IMG/VR virus record: IMGVR_UViG_3300047494_000061
Location: 1 to 64,000 of that record
Reading direction: 5' to 3' (one strand)
Length of the DNA: 64,000 nt
From: a virus
The notes below the pieces were generated by a model. It was not told where the DNA came from, did no database searches, and saw only the letters and a list, made by a program, of their open reading frames with translations. Position 1 is the stretch's first letter; each line of letters begins with the position of its first letter. Of this stretch, positions 22,545 to 62,389 are shown piece after piece. Made by a program: the position numbers and the translations under genes.

Positions 22545-22552
22545 TCGCACTT

Positions 22553-24964
22553 TTAGGGCGAGGGAGGTTGCCCACCTTTAGTGTTTGCCGCCGCCTGCGC
22601 CGCCTGCATCTGTTCGGCGGCCTGCTCTTTGGCCATCTGAGCGGAAATAGCGAGAAAGGCGAGAACGTTTCCGTATCCTGTCGGATTCGATTCCGCTTGC
22701 TCCCAGTTTCGCTGCAGCCATTTCTTCGCGAGAATCGTGCAGACCTGGGGGTCGTCGATGCGGAAGTCGGGCATGATCGACGGGATCACGATCAGCTTCG
22801 GGGAGTTCGGGTCTTGCGGATTCAGTGCCGGGTTCGGCTTCGATATCGGTCCGTTCGGGTCTTGCGACAGCCGATGCAGGATCGTTTTAATTTTCGCTCT
22901 CTCAGGCTCGGTCGAGAGCTCCATCCCTTTCGGCAGGACATAATGGGCCACCTCGTTGGCGATATCGGGATCGCTGAGCATTTGGGTTATGAAGGGAAGC
23001 TTCTGGTTTTCTGCCAGCAATTGCTGAACTCGCGCCTGTTCTTCCGTGTAGGTTGCCGGGAATCCTTCGGTATCTTCCGGGTAAGTGAAGAAGTTCCCGC
23101 CAAGTTCCGACTTCAACATCCGAACCGTATTCCAGCCGTCGCCGGAGTCGTTCTCTTCGACGATCTTGATCTCCTCGTCCATGTTGTCCACCGAGCACAT
23201 GACCGAGAGTTTGGCTCTTTGCGCTTTCTCGGAGCGCATCTGGTTCAAGTATTGCTTCAGCCTTCCCAGCGCCGTGTTGAGCGCCTGTTCCTGCCCTTCG
23301 GCCGTCTGGACGTTCTTGTCCGACCCGCCAAATACTTGCGGCATAACTCCCACGAGGAACTGGGCTCGGGTGGTGAGCGTGTCGGGATACTTGTAAATCT
23401 CCGAATCGATCTGGAAGGTCATTTGATGGAACAACTGATCCAGCGGGACTCGCTGCCCGGTCTCTTCGTCAGTCCTGCTGACTCCGGTCAAGTTCCCTGG
23501 AGTCAGAACCTTGTTCTGCATCGCGTTGCCGTCGATGTAGTCGGCGTCGTAAAGCATCGTCCCGTAGGCGACGCGATCCATGTAGGCGTCGATCTTGTTG
23601 ACCGCCCCGGTGACTCGCTCTTGCACGTCCAGGCAAGGCTTTCCAACCGCAGGAGGATAAGCGCCGGCGCCCTTGAACGTCCCGCACCATGTCCAATGCT
23701 TGCGGCAATCCTCGTTCTTCGCGTCAAGGAAGGTTTCGTCGTTCGTTAGAACCAGCTTGCATCCTTCGGGATAGCGGCTGGCGAGCTCTTGGGCGAGTTC
23801 CTGATCTTCTAGTTCGTTGAAGGTCTCGGCTTTAATCCAGCAACGGGAATAGCTGACATTTCCTTCAAGAATGATGGGGCGATTGTTCGATCCTGGAGTA
23901 GTTTGTCCCGCGCGACCCGTGGCCGCCATGTCTCCGCCCGAAGCCGTGTCCGTTCCGCGCCCTGGCGTGATTTCGGAATATCTTTCAGGGTAAGCCGACC
24001 TGATCTTTGAAGCGGCTATTTCGATCGTGTAGTCGAGGATTTCGGTCTCTGCGATCGGATCGCGAATGCAGTCTGGGTTGATATCGACCATCAAGCCGTT
24101 CACGACATCGTAGGCCGTCATGCCGTTGGCGACTTCTACTTGTCCTGTCACCTGCGGCAAGTCGAGAGTTTGGCCTTCATACCAGTCCTTTTGGGCAAGA
24201 GGTTGGCCGCACTTGGCGCAATTCGGATCGTCTCCGAACGGGCTGGAGTTTTGATCGCCAGGGTTGGCGGTTCCGCAGTTCGAGCAAAGATAAGAGTCCG
24301 GCGAGACCTTCGCGGAGACTATGCCGATCTGATCCTGCTTCGAGGTTCCAGCGCGATCCTTGTCGATCACATACCGGACATAGGTGAAGTAGCATCCAGT
24401 CAACCAAAGATAGAGAAGTTCCAGCTGCTGAAGAGACAGGACATCGTTCATCCGGTCGTTGTAGCCGGAGATCGTCGTGCCTTTTTTTGCGATCTGGATG
24501 TCGTCTTCGTCCTGCGCGTCCACCGGCTGCCAAATGATGCCGCCCATATCGACCATCAGCGCCGCGATAAAGATCATGGCGAACGCTTGGTAGATGTTGT
24601 CGTTGTGGGCGTATAGCTGGGGATCGTCGCCCTGGCCCAAGAATCCCTGCATGAGCTGGTTGATCGTGTCGAGCGCCGCGGACTGGTCGTTCAGCAGGGC
24701 ATAGGTGTTTCCACGCAGAGCTTCGATGGAGCGCATCGCCTCCGACACGAATCTCATGCGCTTGGGCTGGTAGCGCGTCTTGAATGTCCTGCGGAGTTCG
24801 ATCAGCGCGGCCTTGCACCGTTCGTCGAGTTGATCTGCGGCTAGTTTCTGCTCTGCAGTCTGGGGAGAATCGGTGGTCGCGTCGTCGCCGGAGGATTGCG
24901 GCGCTGTCGAGTTTGCATCTTGAGCGCTTAGCGCTGCCATAAGGGCCGGGGCCATCGTTGCCAT
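22553..24964 (-). CDS. Portal protein with an inserted zinc ribbon, 803 aa
   Basis: Size, helical wing segments (LIELRRTFKTRYQPKRMRF), a long C-terminal helix after VVPSIMPDFRI-type sequence, and a Gln/Ala-rich tail (MAKEQAAEQMQAAQAAAN) match podovirus portals. Residues about 228-256 carry CSNC ... CAKC, a four-cysteine ribbon not usual in portals. The segment DSEIYKYPDTLTTRAQFLVGVMPQVFGG resembles the membrane-side loop region of phage portals. It precedes scaffold and capsid. DNA passes through the dodecamer during packaging and ejection (family knowledge). Confidence 0.75.
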   Translation of the reverse strand: MATMAPALMAALSAQDANSTAPQSSGDDATTDSPQTAEQKLAADQLDERCKAALIELRRTFKTRYQPKRMRFVSEAMRSIEALRGNTYALLNDQSAALDTINQLMQGFLGQGDDPQLYAHNDNIYQAFAMIFIAALMVDMGGIIWQPVDAQDEDDIQIAKKGTTISGYNDRMNDVLSLQQLELLYLWLTGCYFTYVRYVIDKDRAGTSKQDQIGIVSAKVSPDSYLCSNCGTANPGDQNSSPFGDDPNCAKCGQPLAQKDWYEGQTLDLPQVTGQVEVANGMTAYDVVNGLMVDINPDCIRDPIAETEILDYTIEIAASKIRSAYPERYSEITPGRGTDTASGGDMAATGRAGQTTPGSNNRPIILEGNVSYSRCWIKAETFNELEDQELAQELASRYPEGCKLVLTNDETFLDAKNEDCRKHWTWCGTFKGAGAYPPAVGKPCLDVQERVTGAVNKIDAYMDRVAYGTMLYDADYIDGNAMQNKVLTPGNLTGVSRTDEETGQRVPLDQLFHQMTFQIDSEIYKYPDTLTTRAQFLVGVMPQVFGGSDKNVQTAEGQEQALNTALGRLKQYLNQMRSEKAQRAKLSVMCSVDNMDEEIKIVEENDSGDGWNTVRMLKSELGGNFFTYPEDTEGFPATYTEEQARVQQLLAENQKLPFITQMLSDPDIANEVAHYVLPKGMELSTEPERAKIKTILHRLSQDPNGPISKPNPALNPQDPNSPKLIVIPSIMPDFRIDDPQVCTILAKKWLQRNWEQAESNPTGYGNVLAFLAISAQMAKEQAAEQMQAAQAAANTKGGQPPSP

Positions 24965-30398: not shown

Positions 30399-33300
30399 CT
30401 AGTTGATGATTTCAAATGTGTAGCACTCTGGATTAGTGGTTAAAGTGGGAAGGGTGAGAGTGAAACTCGTTCCGCCCGTGATCGCCGACACGATTGGCGT
30501 TTGCGTGGCCACGGTGTTGCAAGTCTGGCTCAAAAGAGTTCCTTCGTAAGGCGCGAGCGTCACGAGGATCGTGGAATTTGCCGTGACGGCCGAGTCGTTG
30601 ATCGTGCATGTTCCCGCCGACGCCGACACCGAGCAGCTAAAAGCCCCAGCGGTTGCAGCGGAGCAGGACACCACCGAGGGATTGGCCGCGGTGCCGTTCG
30701 AACTGCATCGGGTCGATGTCTGGTAATGGACGGCGGTAAAATTGTTGTTGCCGTCCACCGTGATGCCTGTCGTGCCGTTGACCTTGAAGTATCCATAAGA
30801 ACTGGTTGGAGTTCCGCTGTTGTAGTTATAGCCAAAGACCGCCGAATTATCGGTCGAGTTCGCTACCCCTAGATTGAATTGGTAGTTAGATCCGGACGGC
30901 AGGGACGAATTAAGGAAATTAGCAAAGCTTTGCGTTCCCGCCGTCGTGTTGGAATCGTTGACCGTGATGCACTTCGATCCGCTGTTATTGCAGTTGACCG
31001 AGAACGCTTCGGGCGTTCCTCCCGTGCCTACCGTAAGGTTGCCGCCCTGCACGTTCACCGCCGCCGTGAAGGTCGCGCCGTTCAGCGACGCGAGAGCAGT
31101 CAGCAGTTTGCCCGAGTCCTGAATCTGGCCGCCAGTTCCGGTGAACGTCACCACATCGCCCGAGACGGACGTCACAGGTCCAGTGGTAAGCCCCGCCCCG
31201 GATCCGGCGACGGTTGCCGCCTGAACGACTCCTCCGGCTCCAGTGGCCAGCGCCGCGATGTTTGATCCGGTTCCTACGAGGCTGAGCGCGAAATTCGTGT
31301 AGACGTTCCCGCTCGGATCGACTTGCAGCGCGTTCGCGTGGCCAGCGATGCCAAACTCCGCATAATTAGTTCCGCCCTGAGTGAAGGAGATTTCGGCGGC
31401 ATTGCCCGAAGAATTGGCCATCCCCACATACATCGCTTCCGTGCCTCCGGAGAGGTTCGGAGCGTAGAACTTCGCCACAGTCCCGCCAGTGGCGTTGTTG
31501 TCGGTGAAGACCGCAGGGGTCTGTCCGCCCTGGGTGTACGTGAAGGTCGCCGTCGATCCCGGCACGGTCAAGAGCACCGCTCCGGTGCATCCGTTGCCGC
31601 CGTTGACGACCGAGACCGCGGTGACGATTCCGCCCGCCGCCGTGACCTGCGCGATGGGGAACGTCGAGCACGATCCTCCCGTCAGGGTGATATTGCTGGT
31701 GCCGTTCGTCGCTCCGGTTCCCCCCGAAAGGATCGCGATGGCCGTCAGTTCGTTGTTCGCGTTGGTGTTGCCGTTGACGGTCAGGGTGTTCGACTGTGTG
31801 CCGCCGCCGACCAGTCCTTCGGAGATCGCGCTGATCGCCGCCGAGACGTTCAATGTCGGATTCAGATAAGAGCCGGTGCGGGTCATGTAGAGATCAACCG
31901 GGTTCGTCCCGTTGCCGAAAAACAGCCCCGGATTCGTGCCGTCCACTTTGGTTCCCAGCGCCACCCGGTAGTACGAATCGCCCGCGAAGCAGGTTGATCC
32001 CGTGACCGATGTGCAGTTCTGGCCCGCGAACAACAGTCCCGCGTTGCCGGAGGTTCCGTTCACGAACGCTTGATAAGCGGGCGCTCCGTTTGAGGAGCTT
32101 GAGCTCGACGCGGAGATGACCGGCACCGTGCCGGATTCGGCGATGTTGAGCGGCCCCGAAATGCCTCCGCTAAACACCGGCGCGGCGGTGAATGTAGCTA
32201 CCCCGGTGAACAGGGATGTGGTTCCGACCGAGAGGCTTCCGGTGGTCGAGACGTTCCCATTCGCATTCTGTACTTGGAAGAATTCGGTGGAGCTTCCCGT
32301 AGTCGATGTGCCGATGCCGAAAGCGGTGTTGTCCCAAAGCCCTTTGTAGGTGTTCTGGAAACGCCACGCGAATCCTTGGGACGGCTTCGCCTCGAAAGTG
32401 AGGGTATTCGGCGTGATGGAAGTGTCGTTGAACAGCGCCAGCCTGCCGTCGATATTCACGCCGCCCGAGTTGTATTCCGTGCCCGCGATGTCGCCAGCCC
32501 AGTTGTTCCAATAGGTCGAAACATACGGCAAAGAGCCGTTGGCGATGATCGTCCGCACGTTCGAGTCCGGCTGGTTCCACGAGCTTCCCCAGAAGTCCAC
32601 CTGACCCACGCCGAAATTGCCATTCGAGTTGAATGTCCCGCCGACCGAGCCAAGCCAGAATCCGCCAACCTCCAGCGTCGGGCCTTGGTTGGTTCCCGTG
32701 CTGGTCAGGTTGCTGTAAGCCCCGGCGGGAACGACCCCGTTCACAACCAGAGTGGTCGCGCTGGTGACGTTCTTGACGTAGAAGACCTGAGAGAGTCCCG
32801 CGAAGTTGAGCGGCATTCCATCGAAAGGGGTGTCGTTGGCCGGAAATCCGCTGCTGTTCGGAGGATCGTACGGGAAAGCGACGAAGTTGCTGGTCGGGGT
32901 CAAGGTCAGAGTCGAGTTCGGGCTGCCGCCGTCGCTCGTCACGTAAATCTTCTGCGCAAGGATGCCGCCGCCCAGGTTCTGTTTTCCGCCCATGAACGAA
33001 ACGCTGTTGGCCGAGAGTCCCGCGACGTTCGAATAGCCAAAGTTTTGGTTGATCATCTCCACGCCGGAGAATCGAACGATGTCTCCGGTCTGCGAAAGAA
33101 GCACGTTGTCGGCGGGCGCTCCCATCGTGTTCTCGGTGCAGGACGTGGTTGGCGGGTAGTTCGAAACGCAGGCGTAGGTTCCCGGCTCGATCTGGAAATC
33201 ATCGAAAAACATCATCGCGGGGCCGGAATGGTTGTTGAACTGCTCTCCTGCCACTTGGGTTCCCATCGCGATTGACGAGTTATAAAAGTCGATGGCCCCG

Positions 33301-36155
33301 CCGCCGATGAAGTACCACTGGTCGACGTCCCCGGTCGAAGTCGAACCTGTGAACGAGTTGTAGAACAGCATCTCGGAAGTGTTGGTCGCGAGATCGCCGC
33401 CGTTGCGCCAGAACGAATTCAGCACGACGCTTTCGCGCGCCGATCCGCTGGTGTACGGGCAGTAGGTAGTGCCCGCAAACTCAGGGCCGCGCAGATAGTC
33501 GATGACCACGTCGTCCATGAAGAAGTGGTCGAAGCTGCATATCTGGATGCCCTGCCCGAAGTACGAGCGAAAGTTTGGATCGTAGAAATGGAGATGCTGG
33601 ATCGAGCCGCCGTAGTTGTGGTTCTGCTCGTTGCGGAGAGAGGTCGTCGATCCGGCGTAAAAGATTGCGTTCTGCATCCCTTGCGCGGTAAAGGGCGCAG
33701 ACCACGTTCCTGTAAAGCGCGGAGAGACCTGGCCGGTTGCGAGAACGGTGCAGGCTCCCAAAGTGGTCGTAAAGGTCGCGGCGGTGGAACTTCCGCCAAG
33801 CTGCCCCGCGCCGATGGAGAATGTGGGAGCGGAAGTGTATCCCGCACCGGGGGTGTACGCGATTGTGTAGGCCGTCGAAGATGTCGCGGTGATGGTCAGC
33901 GTGGCGGCGGTTGTGCCGAATCCAGAAGAATCGGTGAAGGTGTAGGTTCCCGCCGTCATCCCGGTGGGCGCGGTGCCAACCGTGACCGATGCCAGTCCGT
34001 TGCCGGAATTCATGGTCAGAGTGTTGTTCGCCAAGCTGACTCCGGACGGGCTATAGGTGCAGACTCCCGAAAGATTCAATCCATAGATTGAGGCCACGGT
34101 GCCCGACTTCAGCCCGGTAAGCCAGTCCACGTTGTTTCCTAGTCCGTGGATGATGAGGTCGGTGGTGTTTTGCGAGTACCCGCCCGACATATAAGCGACA
34201 GGCTGGAGCGAGACCACGACGTTTCCGCAGTTGTTCGAGTTGGCCCCGGAGTTCAAAGGCGTGGACGATCCGCATCCGGTTGGCACGGTTCCCGGAACCG
34301 ACGCGATGAAGGTATTCTCCTGAAGCAGACCTCTTACTCCAATCCACTGCACGTTGGTCGCGGTTCCCGTGGTGCTGGGAGTCGAGCCGGTCACGTTGAA
34401 GGGCTGTGTGATGTAGCCGTTGACCCCGGTCAGCGCGACGGTCGTGCTTCCCGTATTGGTGATGGTCACGGTCGCGGTGCCGGACGCGGAGGTGTTGTTC
34501 ACCGCCAGCGTGTTTTGGAGTTTGCAATAGGTGTCGCTGCCGACAAGGTTGACCGGGCCGCGCACGATGGCCTGCGTTCCCCACTGGCAGTTCTGGGGCT
34601 TGGTCATGACCAGATCGACCGGAGTTAGAAGCGCTGCGCATTGGTTCGTCCCGCCGCCCGCAGGATTCGACGCGGCGCAGAAGTTGTTCAATGCCGCACC
34701 ATAGTCCGTGCCGCCATTCAGATAGTCTTCCCAAACGTAGACTTGCCGGGAAGTCGCGCCGAGCCAATTCGTCGCGGCCGTCAGCGCGGTTGACGAGTTC
34801 CATGTGTTTCCCGAGTTGTATGTCAGGTTGGGAGCGATGGTTTCGTCGCCTCCGCCGTTGCCGATCACAAGATTGTTTGCGGTGAGGGCGCTGGTCAGAT
34901 GCGTCACCACTGCCGCGTTGGCGGTCGGAAACCGGATCGTCCACCAGTTTCCCGGCGCGGAAGAAGAGTCCGAATACACAAAGCTAGCCCAGCCTGGAGG
35001 GATGGTGGAAGAGCCGCCCGTTCCCGATCCGTCGATTTTGTCCGCCGCGTTCGCCTGAAGAGTGTCCGTTCCGCCGTTGAGGTTTTGGGTCACAAAGGCG
35101 AAGTTCGATCCAAAGCTTCCGCTGATCTGCGGCAGAGTGAGAAGCGCGTTCGACGCGGATGTTTCGAGGATGTAGCTCAGCCGGTCGGAATACACCAGCG
35201 AATAGTTCGATCCTTGCGCGTTGACGGGAACGCCGCTAAGGGCGCAGGTCGGGTCCACCGCTGCCGATCCGGTGACGTTGAATCCGCAATTGTAGAATCC
35301 GTTGACCGAAGGCGACGTGACCAGGTTCATCGTCGAGGAGCCTTCCGTCACCAGCAAAGAGTGGGCCGTGGGGGAAGCGATGCCCGTGCCGCCGCTTGAA
35401 GGCGTGACCAGACCGCCTCCTCCTCCGCTGATGGTGTTGCATCCGAATCCCGTCCCGGTCGTCCATGTGAGGGCGTTCGCCGCGCCGGAGCAGGATGGAA
35501 CGGTCAGCCATGAAGGAGTGGTCGTGGCCGCGCCGAAGATCGTGTTGGCGGTTTGCGACTTGAGTGTCGCCGTCACCGTGCCGGAAGTCGTGACTGGAGC
35601 GCTCGGCGTGGAAGACAACACCACTCCGTCTCCGGTGAAAGTTACGCTGCTGACCGAACCCGACCCTCCTCCGCCGCCAGACCCTACGCCGCACCCAAGG
35701 TTCCACAGGATTAGGTAGGTGGACGACGGATAGGGGCTTGGAAGCGCCGTCGCCGGGGTTGCCACTCTTCCCACGCATTGAGTCGTGGCGATGACGGGAT
35801 TGATCCCGAAGTCGTGACCGATCCCAAACGTTCCCACTTCCACAAAATCTCCAGCCGTGGGGGTGTTGTTGAGCTGGAGCGGAATGATGCCTTGGTTCGC
35901 GACGACAACGCTTCCGGTCGTGCCGATGGTCGATCCGGTCAGCGGGATGGATACGCCGATGATGCCAAACGCTTCGGTTCCCGCCGCTCGAACCGCGTTT
36001 CCCGCCGTGGTCAGCGTGGTCAGGGTGTACGCGGTGGTTCCCGTCGTGCCGTCGTTGGGGATGGGCGCCTGGTTCGCGACCGAGATGTTGCTGACGGTGG
36101 TGGACTGGCCGAAAGCCGCAGTCGCCGCAAGCAGGAGTATTCCGAAGATTTTCAT
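30399..36155 (-). CDS. Giant secreted fibre/adhesin-like protein, 1918 aa
   Basis: Start chosen at ATG 36155, which overlaps the upstream TAA. The N-terminus is a signal peptide (KIFGILLLAATAAFGQ). The rest is Gly/Ser/Thr/Asn-rich and beta-type, with repeated modules such as SGGTGATNGTSNITLTGGS, a pectate-lyase-like middle (residues about 480-1000) and several Ig-like insertions (TLTITATSSTAYTIAYTPGAGY). Repetition and size fit a long fibre, but virion fibres are not normally exported. The GTCCTGY motif common elsewhere in the genome is sparse here, suggesting a separate origin. Confidence 0.7.
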   Translation of the reverse strand: MKIFGILLLAATAAFGQSTTVSNISVANQAPIPNDGTTGTTAYTLTTLTTAGNAVRAAGTEAFGIIGVSIPLTGSTIGTTGSVVVANQGIIPLQLNNTPTAGDFVEVGTFGIGHDFGINPVIATTQCVGRVATPATALPSPYPSSTYLILWNLGCGVGSGGGGGSGSVSSVTFTGDGVVLSSTPSAPVTTSGTVTATLKSQTANTIFGAATTTPSWLTVPSCSGAANALTWTTGTGFGCNTISGGGGGLVTPSSGGTGIASPTAHSLLVTEGSSTMNLVTSPSVNGFYNCGFNVTGSAAVDPTCALSGVPVNAQGSNYSLVYSDRLSYILETSASNALLTLPQISGSFGSNFAFVTQNLNGGTDTLQANAADKIDGSGTGGSSTIPPGWASFVYSDSSSAPGNWWTIRFPTANAAVVTHLTSALTANNLVIGNGGGDETIAPNLTYNSGNTWNSSTALTAATNWLGATSRQVYVWEDYLNGGTDYGAALNNFCAASNPAGGGTNQCAALLTPVDLVMTKPQNCQWGTQAIVRGPVNLVGSDTYCKLQNTLAVNNTSASGTATVTITNTGSTTVALTGVNGYITQPFNVTGSTPSTTGTATNVQWIGVRGLLQENTFIASVPGTVPTGCGSSTPLNSGANSNNCGNVVVSLQPVAYMSGGYSQNTTDLIIHGLGNNVDWLTGLKSGTVASIYGLNLSGVCTYSPSGVSLANNTLTMNSGNGLASVTVGTAPTGMTAGTYTFTDSSGFGTTAATLTITATSSTAYTIAYTPGAGYTSAPTFSIGAGQLGGSSTAATFTTTLGACTVLATGQVSPRFTGTWSAPFTAQGMQNAIFYAGSTTSLRNEQNHNYGGSIQHLHFYDPNFRSYFGQGIQICSFDHFFMDDVVIDYLRGPEFAGTTYCPYTSGSARESVVLNSFWRNGGDLATNTSEMLFYNSFTGSTSTGDVDQWYFIGGGAIDFYNSSIAMGTQVAGEQFNNHSGPAMMFFDDFQIEPGTYACVSNYPPTTSCTENTMGAPADNVLLSQTGDIVRFSGVEMINQNFGYSNVAGLSANSVSFMGGKQNLGGGILAQKIYVTSDGGSPNSTLTLTPTSNFVAFPYDPPNSSGFPANDTPFDGMPLNFAGLSQVFYVKNVTSATTLVVNGVVPAGAYSNLTSTGTNQGPTLEVGGFWLGSVGGTFNSNGNFGVGQVDFWGSSWNQPDSNVRTIIANGSLPYVSTYWNNWAGDIAGTEYNSGGVNIDGRLALFNDTSITPNTLTFEAKPSQGFAWRFQNTYKGLWDNTAFGIGTSTTGSSTEFFQVQNANGNVSTTGSLSVGTTSLFTGVATFTAAPVFSGGISGPLNIAESGTVPVISASSSSSSNGAPAYQAFVNGTSGNAGLLFAGQNCTSVTGSTCFAGDSYYRVALGTKVDGTNPGLFFGNGTNPVDLYMTRTGSYLNPTLNVSAAISAISEGLVGGGTQSNTLTVNGNTNANNELTAIAILSGGTGATNGTSNITLTGGSCSTFPIAQVTAAGGIVTAVSVVNGGNGCTGAVLLTVPGSTATFTYTQGGQTPAVFTDNNATGGTVAKFYAPNLSGGTEAMYVGMANSSGNAAEISFTQGGTNYAEFGIAGHANALQVDPSGNVYTNFALSLVGTGSNIAALATGAGGVVQAATVAGSGAGLTTGPVTSVSGDVVTFTGTGGQIQDSGKLLTALASLNGATFTAAVNVQGGNLTVGTGGTPEAFSVNCNNSGSKCITVNDSNTTAGTQSFANFLNSSLPSGSNYQFNLGVANSTDNSAVFGYNYNSGTPTSSYGYFKVNGTTGITVDGNNNFTAVHYQTSTRCSSNGTAANPSVVSCSAATAGAFSCSVSASAGTCTINDSAVTANSTILVTLAPYEGTLLSQTCNTVATQTPIVSAITGGTSFTLTLPTLTTNPECYTFEIIN

Positions 36156-38233
36156 TACTTGATGTCCACCCATAGGTTCGAGACGCAAGTGAAGAACGTC
36201 GATCCTGTCCCGCCCGACGTGTTGCTATAGGTCGAGCCGTTGACTGAGCAGGCTAGTCCTCCGACGTTCGTGTTGCCGCTGCAAAAGGTAGGCCCGTTCG
36301 CGCCGCCGATCTGAGTGCATTCGGTCGCGGTCACTCGCCCGGTCGGGCCAATGATCGCGCCGAGAGTTCCCAAAGCGGCTCCGTTGGTCGCGGCAGGATA
36401 AAAATACATTCCCCCCGCCCCGCTCCCTTTTGCGTTGGCGAAGTCGATTTCTCCAACAGAGTGGGTGGCGTTCCAAAACATACAAAAACCATTCGTGAGC
36501 GGGCAGGCCCCGATGGAAAAGTTCTGCCCAAACAACACGCCTTGGCTATTCGCGTCCACTTGCACCAGGTTCGCGGAGGTGGCACCGATCAACGGAATCA
36601 AAGCTGTATTGGGGTTGGCAGAGGATGCCAGTTCCCCTCCGTTCGCAAGGAGCACGGAGCCAGTTGGCAGTCCAGTGCCGAACGGCGGAATGGTGGCATT
36701 GTTGCCGACAATCACATTCCCTTGGTCGACGCTAAAATTCTGATTTCCGTCCGCGGAATCAAGCAAATGCAGCGTTTGATCGGCTGGACCTTCGTCGATA
36801 GACGCGGTGTGTACCACGTTGGATCCGTCGCGCCAGTTCAACGCGATGTACTGCGAACCGGAGTTTGCCGTGGTATCGAACGACCCGATCTGGATCGCGT
36901 AGCCGTTGACCTCGCCGTCGTCGAACAGGATGCCGTAAGACCACTTGCCCGTGCCGACGTTCTTCCCGAGATGGATCTGTCCAAAAGACGACCCGTGCAA
37001 GCTGATATTGCCATTGATAAACAGACATGCCGCGTTGGTCGTTGGCTGGGAGGAGTTGCAGTCCAGTTCGTTGAACAGGGTTACGTTGCTGTAGGTATGA
37101 CCCGGATTGATGACGTTCGCACTATACACATCGCCGTCACCTAGGTTGGTATTGATGCCCCAAATGTTCGCGTTGTTCGTCGCCGCGTTGCCTTGTCCGT
37201 AAAACCCTACACAGTAGGTTTGATAGCCTTGGCAGCGAGTAAACGCTCCGATAGCTGTACCCTGCGTCAGCGTCGATCCGGTTGGGATGGTCTGCCCTAC
37301 ACCGAAGGCGATGTCGTAGGTGATTCCGGCCCCGGACAGAACGTCCGACGCCAAGTATCCATTTTCAGTGAATACATTTCCCAGATACGGCGTGGTCGGG
37401 TTGAAAGCATGGGATAAATTGCTGGCGATCGGCCCAGTCATATTCCCGCCGGCCAGAGGGAGATACAACCCAAGGCCGCCGTTGCCGCTGCTTACCGAGT
37501 TCACCACGCAGGTTCCAGACTGCGGCTGGGCGAATCCGAAACTGTAGCTATATTGGCTTGAGGCGACTGTGATGACCGAGCCCACGTATGAGATTTCGTT
37601 CCCATATTGGTCGTAGCAGGCTGAGACGAAGTTCGGCAGGGTGAAGCCGTAAGTTCCGTAGTTCATCGTCACCAGAGTCTGATTGACAAACGTGATGCCT
37701 GGATTGACGCTTCCCGGACCGCCGCCCATCGAAGGGATGCACGGACCTCCATCGATCGACAAGCATCCGGTAATATTCAGGTTCCTGTATTGAGCGTCCT
37801 GCGGATTCGGAGGAGGCTGGGAGCAGGTGATCGGCTGCTGGGTGTTGATATTCCAAAGCGTTTGCGTCGACGCCACCTGGTAGCACTGCTGAGTCCCGCT
37901 TGGCGCGCCCGCCACGATATAGGTGACGGCGTACATGCTCTGACCGGTCGTGCCGTTGCAGGTGATGACGTCGTTGGGGATGATATTGGAATTGATCTGG
38001 CCTTGCGCGTTCGACTGCAGCAGGACTGCGGTCTGGACAATGACGTTGTATCCCGCCACGGAGGACGGAGATGGGCAATTCTGAAGCTGGATCTTCATCC
38101 CGGCATAGGGCGTCGGGGTTCCAAGTATTTGATTCAGATTGCCGGTGATGGGTATTGTTGGAGGCGCTTGGGCGAGGGCCGCGGCGCTAATCGCCAGCGA
38201 CAAAAATGTGAAAATGCGACCAAATCGCACCAT
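36155..38233 (-). CDS. Secreted fibre-like protein, 692 aa
   Basis: A signal peptide (FTFLSLAISAAALAQ) is followed by an N-terminal domain (PITGNLNQILGTPTPYAGMKIQL) with cysteines, and long Gly/Asn/Ser-rich beta segments. It heads the four-gene secreted cassette and is preceded by a late motif 26 bases upstream. Possible roles are surface adhesin, receptor masking against superinfection, or a spike with an unusual N-terminus. The segment boundary TAATG couples it to the next gene. Confidence 0.7.
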   Translation of the reverse strand: MVRFGRIFTFLSLAISAAALAQAPPTIPITGNLNQILGTPTPYAGMKIQLQNCPSPSSVAGYNVIVQTAVLLQSNAQGQINSNIIPNDVITCNGTTGQSMYAVTYIVAGAPSGTQQCYQVASTQTLWNINTQQPITCSQPPPNPQDAQYRNLNITGCLSIDGGPCIPSMGGGPGSVNPGITFVNQTLVTMNYGTYGFTLPNFVSACYDQYGNEISYVGSVITVASSQYSYSFGFAQPQSGTCVVNSVSSGNGGLGLYLPLAGGNMTGPIASNLSHAFNPTTPYLGNVFTENGYLASDVLSGAGITYDIAFGVGQTIPTGSTLTQGTAIGAFTRCQGYQTYCVGFYGQGNAATNNANIWGINTNLGDGDVYSANVINPGHTYSNVTLFNELDCNSSQPTTNAACLFINGNISLHGSSFGQIHLGKNVGTGKWSYGILFDDGEVNGYAIQIGSFDTTANSGSQYIALNWRDGSNVVHTASIDEGPADQTLHLLDSADGNQNFSVDQGNVIVGNNATIPPFGTGLPTGSVLLANGGELASSANPNTALIPLIGATSANLVQVDANSQGVLFGQNFSIGACPLTNGFCMFWNATHSVGEIDFANAKGSGAGGMYFYPAATNGAALGTLGAIIGPTGRVTATECTQIGGANGPTFCSGNTNVGGLACSVNGSTYSNTSGGTGSTFFTCVSNLWVDIK

Positions 38234-54041: not shown

Positions 54042-55418
54042 ATGGCCGACTTGGAACAATTCGAGCGCGGCCTTCCAGCCAACCTGGACGCCGAACGAGC
54101 GATCCTCGGCGGAGTCCTGCTGGAGAACGATCTCTGGCGGGACGTCATCGCCAAGTTGCGGTCTTCGGACTTCGCGCTGGATTCGCACCTGCGCATCGCC
54201 AAGGCGATCAAGCGGCTAATGGACGCGGGGAACGCCGTCGATCTAGTGACGCTCGTCGAGGAACTGGAGCGCCGGCACGAACTTCAGGCGATCGGAGGAG
54301 TCTCTTATCTCGTCGGACTAACCGAAGGATTGCCGCGCAGGATCAACTTGGACGACTACATCCGCATCGTGAAGGACAAGAGCGTCCTGCGGCAAGTTAT
54401 CGGGGTGTGCTCGGATGCTATTACGCGAGCCGCTGACCAGTCGGACGAGGCTATGGATGTCGCCGGAACCGTGGTCAAGGCGATCAGCCAAATATGCGAC
54501 GACAACGCCCCACAGGAGCGCGGCGCCGACATTGCCGATTCGATCTTGGAAAGCATGGACCAGTTCAATCGGCAGAGAAGCCAGAAGGCATCGCCGGGGC
54601 TCAGCTTTGGCATCGGCAAACTGGACGAGTTGACAGGCGGGATGATGCCGGGATTTCAAACTGCCGCAGGAGCAGTCTCAGGAGCAGGCAAGACCACCTT
54701 CCTCGCTCAAGCTGCTCTCGCAACGCTTCAGGCGGGTCATGCGGTGGAACTCTTCCTGTTCGAGCCCACAAAGCAGCAGATTACCTTCAGGCTGCTGTCG
54801 CTGATGGTCGGATGTCGGTATTCCTACGTCGTGAAGCCTTGGACATGCCCCGTGGACGTGGCTGAGAGCCTCGCCAACGCGGCGGGAGAGATGGCCGAGT
54901 GGGGTAGTAGGCTTCGGATGCACGACAGGGCCAGCATGACCCTTGACGACGTTCTAGTGATCGGCCGTCGCGGGATTGAGAAGAACAACTGCCGGCTGAT
55001 TGGAACGGACTACGTGCAGCGGATGAAGATCCGCCAAGCGGAGAAAGACGAGCCTGTGCGGCTGAGGGTCGGGCGCGCGTCGACGGCAATGGCAGACCTC
55101 GTGAAAGGGACGCAATGCCATTCTCTGCTGCTGAGCCAGATCAACACGGGGCGCAGGAGCGGCACGCAGGCAACTCCAACCATGTTCGACTTTCGGGAGT
55201 CGTCGCAGATTGAGAACGACGCCTGCACGATTGTCCTGCTGCACCGCGACTACGACGAGAAGGAAGGCCATTTCGGGAACACCGGGGCCATTTTTGTTCC
55301 AAAGCAGCGATTCGGAAGTCCTTGCAATATCAAAGCCTGGTTCGATCCCTACACGGCATCGTGGCTGGATCACGATCCTGCTGAGCCGCACAAGTCTTTC
55401 TACGAGGGGCGAGAATGA
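54042..55418 (+). CDS. dnaB: DnaB-like replicative helicase, 458 aa
   Basis: N-terminal domain (PANLDAERAILGGVLLENDLW) and RecA-type C-terminal domain with Walker A AVSGAGKTT near 210-218 and a Walker B-like LIGTDYVQRM (usual form is hydrophobic-DYLQ). The arginine-finger region reads FDFRESSQIENDACTIVLLHRD. The domain order is standard for DnaB. Odd points are the TD in Walker B and a long middle. It would unwind DNA at the phage fork with the accessory proteins just upstream. Confidence 0.9.
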   Translation: MADLEQFERGLPANLDAERAILGGVLLENDLWRDVIAKLRSSDFALDSHLRIAKAIKRLMDAGNAVDLVTLVEELERRHELQAIGGVSYLVGLTEGLPRRINLDDYIRIVKDKSVLRQVIGVCSDAITRAADQSDEAMDVAGTVVKAISQICDDNAPQERGADIADSILESMDQFNRQRSQKASPGLSFGIGKLDELTGGMMPGFQTAAGAVSGAGKTTFLAQAALATLQAGHAVELFLFEPTKQQITFRLLSLMVGCRYSYVVKPWTCPVDVAESLANAAGEMAEWGSRLRMHDRASMTLDDVLVIGRRGIEKNNCRLIGTDYVQRMKIRQAEKDEPVRLRVGRASTAMADLVKGTQCHSLLLSQINTGRRSGTQATPTMFDFRESSQIENDACTIVLLHRDYDEKEGHFGNTGAIFVPKQRFGSPCNIKAWFDPYTASWLDHDPAEPHKSFYEGRE

Positions 55419-56758
55419 ACTACTACAACGAAATCGACCCTGCCAAAGCCGCATGGCTTCGCGAACTTATCAAAGCGAACCTAGTAGCGCCCGGAGACGT
55501 GGATGAAAGGAGCATCAAGGATGTCGAGCCAGCAGACCTTTTGGGATATGCCCAGTGCCATTTCTTCGCCGGAATTGGCGTCTGGAGCTACGCGCTCCGA
55601 CTCGCCGGATGGCCCGACGACCGACCTGTCTGGACAGGTTCCTGCCCCTGCCCCAGTTTCAGCGCGGCGGGCAAAGGGCGAGGGTTTGATGATGCTCGTC
55701 ACCTCTGGCCGGAGTGGTATCGCCTCATCCGCAAGTGTCGCCCTGGAACAGTCTTTGGCGAGCAGGTTGCAGCGGCAATTGGACACGGCTGGCTCGACCT
55801 TGTTTGCGGAGACATGGAAGCGGAAGGCTACGCCATTGCGGCGGCGGTACTGGGAGCACACAGCGTCGGTGCGCCGCATATCCGGCAGCGGCTTTACTTC
55901 TGTGCCGACACCTTCGGCTCAAGAGTTCGGGACGCTCGACCCGAAAGCCATGCTGGAGCGGCGGGAACGGTGCAAGGAAACAGCCCAGAACGGGAACGGC
56001 TTCGGGTTGACTCTGAGCAATGCGGCGATATTAGCCACCGTCCCGACCCCGATGGCAGGCTCCCCGGCAACGGATACGTACAACGCGGCGGGCAACTCGG
56101 ATTACTCGCGGAGGATTGTGAATCTGGCGAGCGTTCGCAGCCCGACAATGCGCGACCATCATCCGTCGAAATTCGACCCCGACCGGGCGGACTGCCAGAT
56201 TCAGTTATCGCACCAAGCGCAGTTGAGCGCGGTTCCGACGCCCTGCACTCCGAATGGCGGCCGCTCAATCAGCACGGAAGCGATGGATGCGACTGGACGC
56301 ACGACGGACGGGCGCAAACACACAGCGAGCCTAGAACATACGGTGAAGTTCTCAGCGGTGGCAACACCCCGCAGCGAGGACTCCCAATGCGCGGGGTCGC
56401 ACCGGGGAACGCCGGACACGCTGCACTCTCAAGCGAACCTAGCCGCGGTGACAACCCCATCGGCCCGCGACTGGAAGGACACTTCGGGGATGTCCGAGAG
56501 TGGCGTGGACCCGGATGGCTCGACCCGCTCACGGCTCGATCAATTGCCGAGGCAGGCGCAACTCGCGGCTTCTGGGGCGACTGCGACTGGTGGTACGGCA
56601 GAGACGGCAAGTACCGGCCAATTGGATCCGGCTTATTCCCGCTGTCTTCAGGGTCTCCCGCCCGAGTTCTGCGACTGCGCGGTTATGGCGATGCAATCGT
56701 TGCGCAAGCGGCGCAAGCCTTTATCGAAGCGTACATCGAAGCGCGGCAAAGCGAGTGA
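55415..56758 (+). CDS. DNA cytosine-5 methyltransferase, 447 aa
   Basis: Start overlaps the helicase stop. Motif I HFFAGIGVWSYALRLAGW near residue 49, motif IV SCPCPSFS with catalytic Cys near residue 79, FGEQV, VGAPHIRQRLYF (motif VIII) near 150-160, and the C-terminal motifs IX-X (PARVLRLRGYGDAIVAQAAQAFIEA). The middle, about residues 165-370, is Arg/Gly/Asp-rich and lies where the target-recognition domain should be. A second frame is open through almost all of the gene (next entry). Confidence 0.85.
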   Translation: MNYYNEIDPAKAAWLRELIKANLVAPGDVDERSIKDVEPADLLGYAQCHFFAGIGVWSYALRLAGWPDDRPVWTGSCPCPSFSAAGKGRGFDDARHLWPEWYRLIRKCRPGTVFGEQVAAAIGHGWLDLVCGDMEAEGYAIAAAVLGAHSVGAPHIRQRLYFCADTFGSRVRDARPESHAGAAGTVQGNSPERERLRVDSEQCGDISHRPDPDGRLPGNGYVQRGGQLGLLAEDCESGERSQPDNARPSSVEIRPRPGGLPDSVIAPSAVERGSDALHSEWRPLNQHGSDGCDWTHDGRAQTHSEPRTYGEVLSGGNTPQRGLPMRGVAPGNAGHAALSSEPSRGDNPIGPRLEGHFGDVREWRGPGWLDPLTARSIAEAGATRGFWGDCDWWYGRDGKYRPIGSGLFPLSSGSPARVLRLRGYGDAIVAQAAQAFIEAYIEARQSE

Positions 56759-56765
56759 AGAATAA
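55521..56765 (+). CDS. Overlapping +1-frame protein within the C5 methyltransferase gene, 414 aa
   Basis: ATG 55521 is eight bases after GGAG. The product has a recurring unit (L/F)xxVPTPx: SVPTPSAQ, TVPTPMAG, AVPTPCTP, AVATPRSE, AVTTPSAR, and ends LDPAYSRCLQGLPPEFCD then a Lys/Arg tail. Segments such as GSTLFAETWKRKATP also look conserved. I recall similar proteins (STLxxLTWKxxxTPSG, WPTPTAxD) next to or overlapping phage cytosine methylases. In 56201-56398 about 71% of its codons end in G/C against about 62% in the methylase frame, a small difference, so both frames may be used. Confidence 0.6.
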   Translation: MSSQQTFWDMPSAISSPELASGATRSDSPDGPTTDLSGQVPAPAPVSARRAKGEGLMMLVTSGRSGIASSASVALEQSLASRLQRQLDTAGSTLFAETWKRKATPLRRRYWEHTASVRRISGSGFTSVPTPSAQEFGTLDPKAMLERRERCKETAQNGNGFGLTLSNAAILATVPTPMAGSPATDTYNAAGNSDYSRRIVNLASVRSPTMRDHHPSKFDPDRADCQIQLSHQAQLSAVPTPCTPNGGRSISTEAMDATGRTTDGRKHTASLEHTVKFSAVATPRSEDSQCAGSHRGTPDTLHSQANLAAVTTPSARDWKDTSGMSESGVDPDGSTRSRLDQLPRQAQLAASGATATGGTAETASTGQLDPAYSRCLQGLPPEFCDCAVMAMQSLRKRRKPLSKRTSKRGKASEE

Positions 56766-56810: not shown

Positions 56811-56984
56811 ATGAATGATATCTCCGATAAGCGCAAGGTCGAGATTCTGATGGCGGCCTTTACCGGCTTCATCATGGTGACTACGGGATGCACGTTGGAG
56901 CAGGCGGCCGAAAGCGCGGCGAGAATGTGCGCGATCACGAAAAATTACTATTACCCGCAAGAAACGGTTTCAACTGTCCAATGA
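56811..56984 (+). CDS. Small protein, 57 aa
   Basis: ATG 56811 is preceded by GGAGTGG. Helical hydrophobic part (EILMAAFTGFIMVTTGCTLEQA) and a Tyr-rich middle. The TGA stop overlaps the start of the HNH gene. Too short for family assignment. Confidence 0.55.
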   Translation: MNDISDKRKVEILMAAFTGFIMVTTGCTLEQAAESAARMCAITKNYYYPQETVSTVQ

Positions 56985-57268
56985 TCCGCATCGGCAAGAC
57001 CGGCACAATCCGCAGGACCGGAAAGGACTGGGACGATCTTGTGCGAGAGAGGTTCGAGATGGACCGGAACACTTGCGACGATTGCAAGACCAGTTTTTAC
57101 GCGCCGTGGCCGGAGATTCGCAATTTTCTCGATCCTGCGCATGTGATTTCTCGCGGGGCCGGAGGACCGGACACGTTGGAGAATTTGAGAACCCGATGCA
57201 GATTTTGCCACACGCGGTCGCACAACTGCGGAGGAAAGCCTGTGCCAGCGAAGGAGCATGTAGCGTGA
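56981..57268 (+). CDS. HNH-like protein, 95 aa
   Basis: CDDC near residue 32, AHVISRGAGGPDTLEN and CRFCHTRSHN in order form an HNH nuclease core with a zinc ribbon. Coupled upstream (ATGA) and downstream (GTGA). Small free-standing HNH proteins often assist packaging, but its position beside methylases suggests DNA processing instead. Confidence 0.75.
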   Translation: MIRIGKTGTIRRTGKDWDDLVRERFEMDRNTCDDCKTSFYAPWPEIRNFLDPAHVISRGAGGPDTLENLRTRCRFCHTRSHNCGGKPVPAKEHVA

Positions 57269-58473
57269 GCTATTCGATCCTTGAAGGCGACGTTATCGAC
57301 CGTCTGCGGGAGTTGCCAGACGATTCGGTGCAGTGCGTTGTGACCTCGCCTCCCTACTGGGGATTGCGGGACTACGGCGTCGAGGGACAGATCGGGCTGG
57401 AAAAGACGCCGCAAGAGTTCGTCGCCAAGATGGTTGCGGTGTTCCGCGAGGTTCGCCGGGTGCTGCGCAAGGATGGAACGTGCTGGGTCAACATGGGCGA
57501 CTCTTACGCGACAGGAACGACGTCGAAGCGCAATCCTACCGCGACCGGCAAGCATGGCTATTGGGAGAATCCTGCGGTCAACATGCGAATCAACGGCGCA
57601 GAGTACGGCCTAAAGCCCAAAGACCTCTGCGGGATGCCCTGGCGTCTCGCCTTCGCCCTTCAGAACGACGGCTGGTGGTTGCGGCAGGACATCATCTGGT
57701 CGAAACCCAACCCGATGCCCGAAAGCGTCACTGACCGATGCACAAAGGCGCATGAGTATATGTTCCTGCTGACTAAGAGCGCGAAGTGTTACTTTGATGC
57801 GGACGCGATCAAAGAGCCTGTCTCGGGTGGCGCCCACATGAGAGCACCAGGCAATAAGACACACAAGGGCGTAGAGGCCTACGAGGGTGGCGCACGAGAG
57901 CATCGTACCAAGGCAGGGCTGCTTGCGTACAGTGATCGCGTCGGACGTGAAGGAAAGAATTCACGGATGCACCAGGACAGAGACCCGAATCATTCTGCGG
58001 AGCGAAAGCAGCGCGCCTACAAGATGCCTGACGGTTGGGATACCGGCGCGGGATCACATGGAACTATTCATCGCGCGGGCCGAGAGAAGGGACGTCATGC
58101 AGGAGTAGGCCCGAAGGCATCGGCACCAGATAGCGGCACCAAGTACAACGAAAGCTTCAGCGCTGCCGTTGTTGATCTAGTTGACTTCCGCAACAAGAGG
58201 GATGTGTGGGAGATAGCCACACAGCCCTACCCTGAGGCCCACTTCGCCACCTTTCCCGAGGCGCTGGTCCAGCCATGCATCCTGGCAGGTAGCAAGCCAG
58301 GGGACACCGTATTAGACCCGTTCTCCGGCTCAGGAACCACCGGCGTCGTCGCGCTGCGTTATCACCGCAAATACATCGGCATTGAGCTTAACCCTGAATA
58401 CGCGGCCATGAGCCGCCGCCGCATCGAGCAGGATCAGCCGCTATTCAACACATCCGAAAGGACCACAGCATGA
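57265..58473 (+). CDS. DNA methyltransferase of the N4-C/N6-A type, 402 aa
   Basis: GTG 57265 overlaps the HNH stop. Motif IV SPPYWGLRDYG at residues 28-38 and motif I DPFSGSGTTGVVA near residue 351 put it in the order used by beta-class enzymes. Residues about 195-310 form a charged, Gly/His/Lys-rich insert that could be the target-recognition region. Together with the C5 enzyme it probably protects phage DNA from host nucleases. The methylated base cannot be told by eye. Confidence 0.85.
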   Translation: MSYSILEGDVIDRLRELPDDSVQCVVTSPPYWGLRDYGVEGQIGLEKTPQEFVAKMVAVFREVRRVLRKDGTCWVNMGDSYATGTTSKRNPTATGKHGYWENPAVNMRINGAEYGLKPKDLCGMPWRLAFALQNDGWWLRQDIIWSKPNPMPESVTDRCTKAHEYMFLLTKSAKCYFDADAIKEPVSGGAHMRAPGNKTHKGVEAYEGGAREHRTKAGLLAYSDRVGREGKNSRMHQDRDPNHSAERKQRAYKMPDGWDTGAGSHGTIHRAGREKGRHAGVGPKASAPDSGTKYNESFSAAVVDLVDFRNKRDVWEIATQPYPEAHFATFPEALVQPCILAGSKPGDTVLDPFSGSGTTGVVALRYHRKYIGIELNPEYAAMSRRRIEQDQPLFNTSERTTA

Positions 58474-58846: not shown

Positions 58847-60586
58847 ATGGCAGTTCAGATCAAGTATGGCAAAGAAGCACGAGAAGCGCTCCTCGAAGGA
58901 GCAAGAAAGCTCAACCAGGCAGTCTCGGTCACAATGGGTCCCGCCGGACGCACCGTTATTTTCCGTCACGGCAACATGCTCGTGCCAACCAAGGACGGCG
59001 TTACAGTGGCGAGAGAGATCAACCTTCCCGATCCCTTCGAGTCCATCGGCGCAGACCTCATCAAAGCGGCGGCGGGACAATGCGTCGACCAGGCTGGCGA
59101 CGGGACCACTGCCGCAACCCTCCTCGCCTACTCCATTTTCGAGGCAGGATGCCAAGCCATTGACTCCGGCGCCGAGCCCACGCAGCTTGTCCGAGGCATT
59201 GAGCGCGCCTGCAGGGCGATTGTCGGCGAATACGATCCCGAACAGAAGAAATTCAGCGGCGGGATTCTGGAGAAGTTTTCGGTTCCCACCACTCCCGAAC
59301 TGGCGTTTCAGGCCGCAAGGATATCGGCGAACGGCGACGAGAAGATCGCGAGAGTCGTGTCGGACGCGGTGCTGCAGTGCGGCGTGGAAGGAGCTCTAAC
59401 TATCGGCGACTCTTACTCCACGGAACACGTTCTTGAGCGTTTGGATGGGATGCAGGTCAGGTCTGGAATGGTTCACCCGTATTTCGTGACCGACCCGCAG
59501 CGCAACAGAGCCGTCTACGACGACGTGACGGTGCTGCTGGTCAACCGGCGCATTTCGACGGCGAACGAGGCCACGAACATTATGAAAGCCGCCATAGGGG
59601 CTGCGCAGGCCGATACCAGGGCCGTTTCGATTCTGATCCTGTGCGACGATATCGACCCCGAGGCGCTGATCCATATCGTCAACAACAAGGTGCGTCCCGA
59701 TTCTTCTGCGATTCCTATCGTGGTCGTGCGGACTCCCTTGTGGGCCGACGCAAGACGCGACTTGCTGGAAGACTTGTCGGTCATCACCGGCGGAAAGGTC
59801 ATCGACAGTCCCAGGGGGAAGGCTTACGAGGACCTGCGCCGCGCAGACTTCGGATACGCCAAGCGGGTGGTTGTGGACCACAGCAGGACTCTGATCACTA
59901 CCGATCCTTCCGACTTTGAGCGATCGGCAAAATTGGAGCCGCATATCGCGAGGATCAAGGCCGTGATTGCGGACGAGGCTTCGGACGCTCGTCAGGTGGA
60001 CGCGGCCAAGACTAGGCTGGCGGCTTTGACGGGAGGAGTCGCTGTCATCAAGGTCGGAGGAACTTCGGCCAACGACATTACCGAGATCAAGTTTCGGGTG
60101 GAGGACGCGATCCACGCAACTCGTGCGGCGGTCAGCGATGGAGTTGTGCCAGGAGGAGGGAGCGCGCTGCTGTTCGCGAGCCTTACGTATTCTATAGCGA
60201 AACCTGAACCGGGAGATTTCCCAAGAAAATACGTTTCCCTAGACGATGACTCAATGCCGGAACTTAGCGACGTCGACCGCGGGGTTTCGCTGCTACTTTC
60301 GATTCTCGTGGAACCACTTAAGCAGATCGCGGCTAACGCAGGATATAAAGGCGATGAAGTAGCCAATAAGGTCGCAGAAGACGTACTGGATCACGGCTAC
60401 ACCAACGGCTTTGACGCATCCTCTGGAACGTTCCCAAAGGACATGATCGCCGCGGGAATCGTAGATCCTTTACGGGTCGTGCGGGCCGCATTGAACGCGG
60501 CGACCAGCGCTGCCGCTACGACGTTGTTGAAGTGCGAGGCTGTGATCGCGCACGATCCGGTGAGCGACACCATCACAAGGCGGTAA
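58847..60586 (+). CDS. groEL: GroEL-like chaperonin, 579 aa
   Basis: Chaperonin motifs: VTMGPAGRTVIF near 29-40, DGVTVA, the ATP-site GDGTTAATLLA near 84-94, VEDAIHATRAAVSDGVVPGGGSALL and GIVDPLRVVRAALNAATS. The equivalent of the catalytic Asp in the VEDA motif is kept. It lacks the Gly/Met-rich C-terminal tail of bacterial GroEL and ends in VSDTITRR; it is about 30 residues longer than E. coli GroEL. It would fold phage proteins, perhaps the large virion or secreted ones. Directly after the groES-like gene. Confidence 0.92.
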   Translation: MAVQIKYGKEAREALLEGARKLNQAVSVTMGPAGRTVIFRHGNMLVPTKDGVTVAREINLPDPFESIGADLIKAAAGQCVDQAGDGTTAATLLAYSIFEAGCQAIDSGAEPTQLVRGIERACRAIVGEYDPEQKKFSGGILEKFSVPTTPELAFQAARISANGDEKIARVVSDAVLQCGVEGALTIGDSYSTEHVLERLDGMQVRSGMVHPYFVTDPQRNRAVYDDVTVLLVNRRISTANEATNIMKAAIGAAQADTRAVSILILCDDIDPEALIHIVNNKVRPDSSAIPIVVVRTPLWADARRDLLEDLSVITGGKVIDSPRGKAYEDLRRADFGYAKRVVVDHSRTLITTDPSDFERSAKLEPHIARIKAVIADEASDARQVDAAKTRLAALTGGVAVIKVGGTSANDITEIKFRVEDAIHATRAAVSDGVVPGGGSALLFASLTYSIAKPEPGDFPRKYVSLDDDSMPELSDVDRGVSLLLSILVEPLKQIAANAGYKGDEVANKVAEDVLDHGYTNGFDASSGTFPKDMIAAGIVDPLRVVRAALNAATSAAATTLLKCEAVIAHDPVSDTITRR

Positions 60587-61588: not shown

Positions 61589-62389
61589 ATGAAGCACATC
61601 GTTTGTTTCAGCGGCGGCAAAGACTCGACAGCGCTCATACTTTGGGCGATAGAGAACCTGCCGGACTTTATGACGGTGTTTTGCGATACCGGATGGGAGC
61701 ACCCGATCACTTACGCATACGTGGAGGAAATTAACCAGACGTTGCTCTATGGATCGCTGATTACACTTGTCAGCGCTAAATACGACAGCTTCGTAGACCT
61801 CTGCGTGCTCAAAGGACGTGCGCCTTCGGCGAAGGCGCGATTCTGCACCGAAGCCCTTAAGGTTCGACCAATGATCGACTGGCTCAAAACGTTGGACGAT
61901 GAGGTTACGGTCTACCAAGGCATCCGCGCCGACGAGAGCGTCAGTCGCGCCAAGATGGAAGCGCGTCAGTGGAGCGACGATTACGATGCATGGATTGAGA
62001 GACCGCTGCTAACCTGGACTGCCGAACGGTGTTTCGCGACGATGGCCGCGCACGGAGTGAAGCCTAATCCGCTGTACTTAATGGGCGCAGGACGCGTGGG
62101 CTGTTTTCCATGCGTGATGGTCAACATGCGGGAGTTAAAGGCTTATCTCTCTGGGGAAGTAGGACCGGAACTAAAGCGGAGACTTTTCGATCTAGAGGCC
62201 CGCGTCGGATGTTCGTTCTTTGAACCCTCGTACATCCCAGAAAGATTTTGCACCGGCTTCGACGAGAAGAGCGGTAAGCCGTTTCCGTGGGCTGCTGACG
62301 TATTCCGCTATATCGAGAGCGTGGACGAAAATCAACTGCCGATGTTCCCGGCACGATCCTGCATGAGCGTTTATAACCTTTGCGAGTAG
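61589..62389 (+). CDS. PAPS-reductase/PP-loop family protein, 266 aa
   Basis: PP-loop SGGKDSTA at residues 8-15, then CTEALKVRP near 91-99 and GAGRVGCFPC near 170. These match the phage members of the phosphoadenosine-phosphosulphate reductase family. They use an activated adenylate and may carry sulphur to a base or thiolate site; some are linked to DNA modification. No DndD/E or SspB-like partner is visible here, so a phosphorothioate role is not supported. Next to an ASCH-like gene and two methylases, a modification role is a guess. Confidence 0.8.
   Translation: MKHIVCFSGGKDSTALILWAIENLPDFMTVFCDTGWEHPITYAYVEEINQTLLYGSLITLVSAKYDSFVDLCVLKGRAPSAKARFCTEALKVRPMIDWLKTLDDEVTVYQGIRADESVSRAKMEARQWSDDYDAWIERPLLTWTAERCFATMAAHGVKPNPLYLMGAGRVGCFPCVMVNMRELKAYLSGEVGPELKRRLFDLEARVGCSFFEPSYIPERFCTGFDEKSGKPFPWAADVFRYIESVDENQLPMFPARSCMSVYNLCE

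Follow-up and report, generated by a model that had tools for sequence, protein, structure and literature searches.

What is encoded by the second long reading frame that covers almost the whole of a phage cytosine methyltransferase gene? The gene lies in a 64,000-nucleotide stretch of viral DNA (the window), which is part of a 69.8 kb viral record. Its C5-cytosine methyltransferase frame, here called alpha, comprises 447 residues and starts with an ATG that overlaps the stop codon of a DnaB-type helicase ORF (54042-55418). Alpha shares 1238 of its 1344 bases with an ORF in the +1 frame, here called beta. This frame stays open from 55503 to 56765 and yields 414 codons when read from the ATG at 55521. 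We re-read the ORF and found its coordinates (55521-56765) and length as reported in a first-pass annotation of the sequence, together with the ribosome site at its start: the Shine-Dalgarno sequence AAAGGAG ends 8 nt 5' of the ATG. Among 37 representative loci, 28 have such a sequence and start near the same point, the usual position relative to motif I being -38. The features of the locus are as follows.

55415-56758, plus strand: alpha, C5-cytosine methyltransferase frame with motifs I-VIII and X (PF00145, 8e-15; phrog_363, 1.6e-72)
55521-56765, plus strand: beta, putative +1-frame subunit of 414 aa (an in-frame upstream ATG at 55503 is also possible), indicated by its Shine-Dalgarno sequence and coding selection
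55506-55512, plus strand: Shine-Dalgarno sequence AAAGGAG of beta, within the alpha codons D-E-R-S-I (28 of 37 loci; dip at the third position of alpha)
55559-55612, plus strand: alpha motif I (HFFAGIGVWSYALRLAGW; sequence, alignment A2)
55637-55678, plus strand: alpha motif IV with the catalytic PC (GSCPCPSFSAAGKG; PF00145 and M.HhaI alignments)
55757-55768, plus strand: alpha motif VI, variant GEQV (alignment A2)
55734-55877, plus strand: predicted helix-hairpin segment of beta under dual-frame constraint (pLDDT of the P0002 model; all three codon positions slow)
55868-55900, plus strand: alpha motif VIII (GAPHIRQRLYF), where the constrained frame switches (codon-position change, sequence)
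55899-56567, plus strand: beta unit array, read by alpha as a linker (unit shuffling in relatives; alpha position 1 free)
near 55899, 56037, 56133, 56229, 56355 and 56445, plus strand: starts of the PTP-type units of beta
near 56445, plus strand: last PTP-type unit of beta, with SARDWKDTSGM...RLDQLPRQAQLA (sequence)
56616-56669, plus strand: motif IX-like segment of beta (GQLDPAYSRCLQGLPPEF; profile comparison with single-chain methylases, motif scan)
56570-56668, plus strand: conserved alpha segment FWGDCDWWYGRDGKYRPIGSGLFPLSSGSPARV, read over the motif IX of beta and at most a degenerate motif IX (alignment A2; both frames slow)
56678-56734, plus strand: alpha motif X (RGYGDAIVAQAAQAFIEAY; alignment A2, motif scan)

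An open +1 frame of this length is improbable by chance. It stayed open in 0.4% of 20,000 synonymous-codon shuffles of alpha (mean 4.1 stops), and the remaining forward frame over alpha contains 12 stops. This alone is insufficient, however, and it is the comparative evidence that settles whether beta is a gene. In the phase of the overlap the third codon position of alpha is the second of beta, and the third position of beta is the first of the next alpha codon. We compared 37 disjoint pairs of loci. Between motifs IV and VIII the differences at alpha positions 1, 2 and 3 amounted to 0.089, 0.051 and 0.165, the pattern of an alpha gene. Between motifs VIII and IX they were 0.284, 0.100 and 0.083 (counts of 1079, 378 and 312), i.e. 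the first position of alpha is free. The binomial p of ~5e-99 for position 1 versus 3 is nominal, since sites within a pair are non-independent and disjoint pairs lessen shared descent without abolishing it. The freely changing position switches at motif VIII of alpha, from alpha's third to alpha's first, which is the third of beta. An earlier count over all pairs agrees with this result. Single-chain controls gave 0.095, 0.078 and 0.130 for the same region, with no switch of position. A distant minimal split family showed the switch (27, 2 and 0 differences, from two pairs only). The window's own pair (L001/L089; 12, 15 and 16 differences) is too diverged to reveal the pattern by itself, and the case for dual coding in the window therefore rests on the family.

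Beta is a real gene under coding selection. The first-pass annotation had supposed that, if both proteins are made, the recognition region of the methylase is encoded under the constraint of the second one. From motif VIII to IX, however, the methylase is not the constrained product: alpha serves there as an almost free linker, and conservation is seen in beta. A synonymous-shuffle test on 25 diverse loci gave large z-scores, which we set aside because they are inflated by shared descent. Synonymous rates in split versus single-chain catalytic parts revealed a mild overall suppression, which was localised by a gap-free profile (see below). The arginine codon at the Shine-Dalgarno sequence of beta is AGG or CGG in 23 of 32 loci, a suggestive choice that is confounded by ancestry.

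The catalytic motifs of alpha are those of a C5-methyltransferase: motifs I, IV (PC), VI and VIII are present, PF00145 matches above its cut-off and the sequence aligns with M.HhaI. Motif X (RGYGDAIVAQAAQ) is located on the same chain in frame 0. All canonical motifs had been credited to the methylase at first reading, which holds for I, IV, VIII and X; motif VI reads GEQV in place of ENV, and a canonical motif IX is absent from alpha, which has only a degenerate R-P...P...G-P string. A canonical motif IX and a constrained variable region, which C5-methyltransferases (PF00145) have on the same chain, are not found in alpha. Its conserved segment RPIGSGLFPLSSGSPARV, read over the same DNA as the end of beta, may stand in as a degenerate motif IX.

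The C-terminal end of beta (QLDPAYSRCLQGLPPEF) matches motif IX of C5-methyltransferases, and relatives read LNPAHSRWLMGLPxxW. This segment was the sole match of beta to profiles of single-chain enzymes, with E values of 1e-4 (array form) and 1.5e-6 (minimal form), and the match is short. A motif scan located motif IX in the +1 frame and motif X in frame 0 at 84 loci and both in one frame at 4 single-chain loci; at 9 loci no pair was recognised. In the single-chain enzyme L121, PF00145 spans residues 1-274 of 289 (profile positions 1-313), and a segment just ahead of motif X is collinear with motif IX of M.HhaI, its own score being not significant. On the DNA of the locus the parts follow one another as they do in single-chain enzymes (I-VIII, variable region, IX, X), except that two of them, the variable region and IX, lie in the other frame.

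The variable part of beta in the window consists of six PTP-type units, some of them degenerate (VPTP, VPTP, RSPT, VPTP, VATP and VTTP). Recurrent VPTP-type units had been noticed before, although five were counted. The units share a core, TPxARDYK or TPxARDWK, which occurs in single-chain enzymes as well. Their number and order vary among relatives, as in the exchangeable units of multispecific methyltransferases; the unit WPTPQVSNITNATT, for example, is the second in locus L023 and the fourth in L031. Place, modularity and shared core of the units suggest a function in target recognition. An AlphaFold2 prediction of beta with 36 sequences gave a poor fold (mean pLDDT 53), and a Foldseek search with this model returned no structural match. 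In this model (P0002) a helix and a hairpin reach a pLDDT of ~77-91 over residues 71-120. For a single-chain enzyme AlphaFold2 predicted motifs IX and X with confidence, and an M.HhaI-type fold was found; the unit array was disordered and is folded in neither of the two AlphaFold2 models. Comparison of beta with Pfam, NCBIfam and the PDB by sequence or profile yielded nothing meaningful. In PHROGs beta falls under 'DNA methyltransferase' labels, which were not counted as evidence of function since they may stem from the overlapped gene.

Homologue searches bore out the first-pass remark that the +1 protein resembles proteins found with phage methylases, and revealed wide conservation. Relatives of beta are present at 64 viral loci and at 27 loci in bacterial genomes of several phyla; depending on the query, 100 or 220 phage records were matched. 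Phages of the E. coli BASEL collection (Bas72, 74, 75, 76, 77 and 79) are among the matches. More than 100 phage and bacterial loci have the overlapping arrangement, among them those of phages N15, epsilon15 and K1ind1, and databases usually list one gene. At almost all loci examined beta lies over the methylase in the same phase. Gordonia phage Gudmit gp58 and Mycobacterium phage Phasih gp065 are single chains with motifs I-VIII, PTP-type units (such as LPPTPSAADGNGG and LLSTPQARDYKG), motif IX (RLSAAFAEWMMMLPAGW or RLHPAFPEWMMGWPAGW) and motif X in one frame. Minimal pairs occur in Mycobacterium phage Hades (alpha of 237 aa) and Microbacterium phage R1 (alpha of 246 aa): these alpha chains have almost nothing between motifs VIII and X and no variable region, and the +1 ORF comprises one unit and motif IX.

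The DNA thus codes in both frames, beta ends in a motif IX-like segment, and counterparts exist in which the same parts form one chain. Based on these results we propose, with a probability of roughly 0.78, that the locus encodes one C5-cytosine methyltransferase as two polypeptides, alpha as the catalytic chain and beta as the carrier of motif IX and the variable region. The second protein was first considered as a methylase partner, an inhibitor or a mimic; our results speak for a partner, namely the missing half with variable region and motif IX. Alpha would contribute the AdoMet-binding catalytic domain with the PC catalytic loop, motifs I-VIII and X, and a free linker between them. Beta would be made from the same message by internal initiation, using its own Shine-Dalgarno sequence and ATG inside alpha. 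It would supply the helix-hairpin segment, and it would complete the small domain with motif IX and with swappable PTP-type units that take the place of the variable (target-recognition) region. Both chains would join into one active enzyme, in the simplest case with one alpha per beta. We infer that beta is translated and binds alpha, that alpha is inactive alone and that the units set the specificity.

Alternatively, alpha alone could be the methylase and beta a separate inhibitor, regulator or anti-restriction factor. In favor of this, beta is conserved in its own right, and alpha does have a conserved C-terminal segment ahead of motif X. Alpha, however, has neither a constrained variable region nor a canonical motif IX, beta ends in a motif IX-like segment and carries its units where single-chain enzymes have them, and no stand-alone beta without an overlapping alpha was found among the loci examined. 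We regard a separate function of beta as improbable.

Constraint along the gene was profiled in 29 gap-free enterobacterial relatives. In the upstream part alpha alone is constrained, and change at its third position drops at the Shine-Dalgarno sequence and start of beta. In the later catalytic domain all three codon positions are slow, and both frames therefore seem to count there. From motif VIII onward beta alone is constrained; change is again slow at every position around motif IX, and toward motif X and past it constraint is on alpha alone. Dual-frame constraint is confined to the DNA under the predicted helix-hairpin of beta and around motif IX. Of these two stretches, the one in the catalytic part coincides in part with the confidently modeled segment of beta (helix and hairpin, approximately residues 70-120), and the first ~40 residues of beta look little constrained. 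This profile also bears on a possible ribosomal frameshift near motif VIII, which would fuse the N-terminal part of alpha to the units and motif IX of beta in a single chain. The order I-VIII, units, IX, X on the DNA would fit such a product, but beta owns a Shine-Dalgarno sequence and a start, constraint acts on it already ahead of motif VIII, and to include motif X the ribosome would have to shift once more, back into the alpha frame; we consider a frameshift very unlikely.

That the +1 frame is a mere shadow of alpha conservation in a G+C-rich gene, with no product, is scarcely credible: in GC-rich catalytic parts the +1 frame is open, and N-terminal matches in +1 are obtained even from single-chain loci that lack a beta gene, but between motifs VIII and IX alpha changes while beta is kept, a shadow cannot outdo its source, and the single-chain controls lack the pattern. 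As the whole explanation it is ruled out by the codon-position counts, these controls and the gap-free profile, and for the region from VIII to IX it is in effect refuted. Given the matches at single-chain loci, the similarity among beta sequences at the N-terminus and over the catalytic part is partly such a shadow, and the first ~40 residues may be explicable in this way.

Exceptional loci are few. The first-pass annotation had named a lack of homologues, or relatives with stops in the +1 frame and an intact methylase, as evidence that would speak against the second protein; homologues are many, and beta is interrupted by a stop while alpha stays open at only two loci, L029 (viral contig) and L164 (enterobacterial genome), in the latter ahead of the units and motif IX. 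In locus L159 the stop lies in alpha instead. In L006, L007, L008, L011, L012, L013 and L065 both frames are exchanged by shifts, and L026 has a shift near the end. Either sequencing errors or decay could account for these cases.

Several relatives have additional features. In a Desulfovibrio sp. MAG (L080:3157-4959) the catalytic region contains an insertion of ~160 codons that is open in both frames and in the beta frame reads HNH-like and Cys-rich. It perhaps resembles the 'ShiLan' insertion of phage methylases, an HNH sequence lying out of frame (PMC11855218); the out-of-frame HNH gene within actinophage methylases described in that 2025 paper is a different thing from the split into alpha and beta. 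The alpha chains of L067, L082 and L083 have extra inserts after motif IV, Cys-rich and zinc-finger-like in L067 and L083, and beta is open throughout. On the viral contig of L044 a second, different overlapping methylase pair (L044:1-520) is located just upstream of the first, with an alpha-like frame at 1-507 and a beta-like frame at 2-520 ending in NYAEWLMMWPSGW. At L150:468-1728 a split methylase overlaps only partly, and its +1 ORF contains units, IX and X, as in M.AquI.

In the window the split methylase is followed by an HNH endonuclease ORF (56888-57268) and an N4/N6 DNA methylase ORF (57073-58473), and no adjoining gene was identified as its endonuclease partner. Plasmid searches for a member of a restriction-modification system returned only labels of the 'DNA cytosine methyltransferase' type or uncharacterised proteins. 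Given these neighbors and the lack of an identified endonuclease partner, the likeliest use is probably methylation of the phage's own DNA, which would protect it against host restriction. Farther downstream the window encodes a phage GroEL-type chaperonin (58847-60586; PF00118, 2.7e-53; phrog_5725, 5e-113) and a PAPS-reductase-domain protein (61589-62389; PF01507, 4e-26), a fold that also serves enzymes of DNA phosphorothioation and tRNA thiolation. Five large proteins of ~490-1930 aa on the minus strand (12946-15717, 21044-24964 and 30399-38233), perhaps structural, had no match to a PHROGs family at E 0.001.

If the two-polypeptide reading is true, the 'DNA cytosine methyltransferase' annotated as a single gene in many phages, N15 and epsilon15 among them, is half an enzyme. 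Codon-optimised synthesis of the annotated frame would then destroy beta; cloned native DNA could still work, since it carries both frames. The family provides long same-strand overlaps in large number, a natural collection on which frame constraint can be mapped with single-chain relatives as a control. With it, why some C5 enzymes are split can be put directly to the test. Targeted methylation, for which split C5 enzymes have already been explored (PMC3404938, PMC3439449), could draw on these naturally divided methylases and their modular subunit.

The closest precedent is M.EcoHK31I, the small subunit of which is likewise encoded in an alternative frame within the gene of the large subunit. 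We compared it by its published description. M.EcoHK31I (YGGCCR) and M.AquI (CYCGRG) have been described as naturally split C5 enzymes, and fragments of single-chain C5 enzymes complement one another (PMC3404938). In M.EcoHK31I the large polypeptide carries motifs I-VIII and X and the small one only motif IX (PMC3404938, citing Lee, Kam and Shaw 1995; also PMC3439449), the same distribution that the sequences suggest for alpha and beta. Its predicted target-recognition domain, however, has been placed in the large subunit (PMC3404938), whereas in the present family beta contains the variable region and the alpha linker is free. Moreover, M.EcoHK31I is part of a restriction-modification system, while no endonuclease was identified beside the alpha/beta gene. 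The small subunit of M.AquI comprises motifs IX and X together with some of the variable region (PMC3404938). It resembles beta in carrying the variable region and, in part, in motif IX; motif X, in contrast, is located in alpha here, and locus L150 is closer to M.AquI than the window locus is. Gudmit gp58 and Phasih gp065 have the same order on the DNA (catalytic part, units, IX, X) but in one frame and one chain.

Multispecific C5-methyltransferases of Bacillus phages carry several recognition domains, proven units on a single chain. As beta seems to, they have exchangeable units in the variable region, although in beta the recognition role is predicted. The GenBank record of K1ind1 annotates both overlapping frames, ORF29 as 'putative C-specific methylase' and ORF28 as 'putative Mte8-like protein', and gives no function; the one paper retrieved on it (PMC5582158) offers no more than the name of the Mte8-like gene. 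A literature search, which covered few subscription journals, retrieved no paper that presents the phage family as two-subunit enzymes. With about even odds, these loci form a widespread phage class in which an out-of-frame subunit bears a swappable array of recognition units and motif IX, specificity would be reshuffled by exchanging modules open in two frames, and the catalytic subunit would read them as a tolerant linker. Compared with the known split enzymes, the new features are the breadth of the family (including N15, epsilon15 and K1ind1), the shuffled unit array of beta and the two stretches constrained in both frames.
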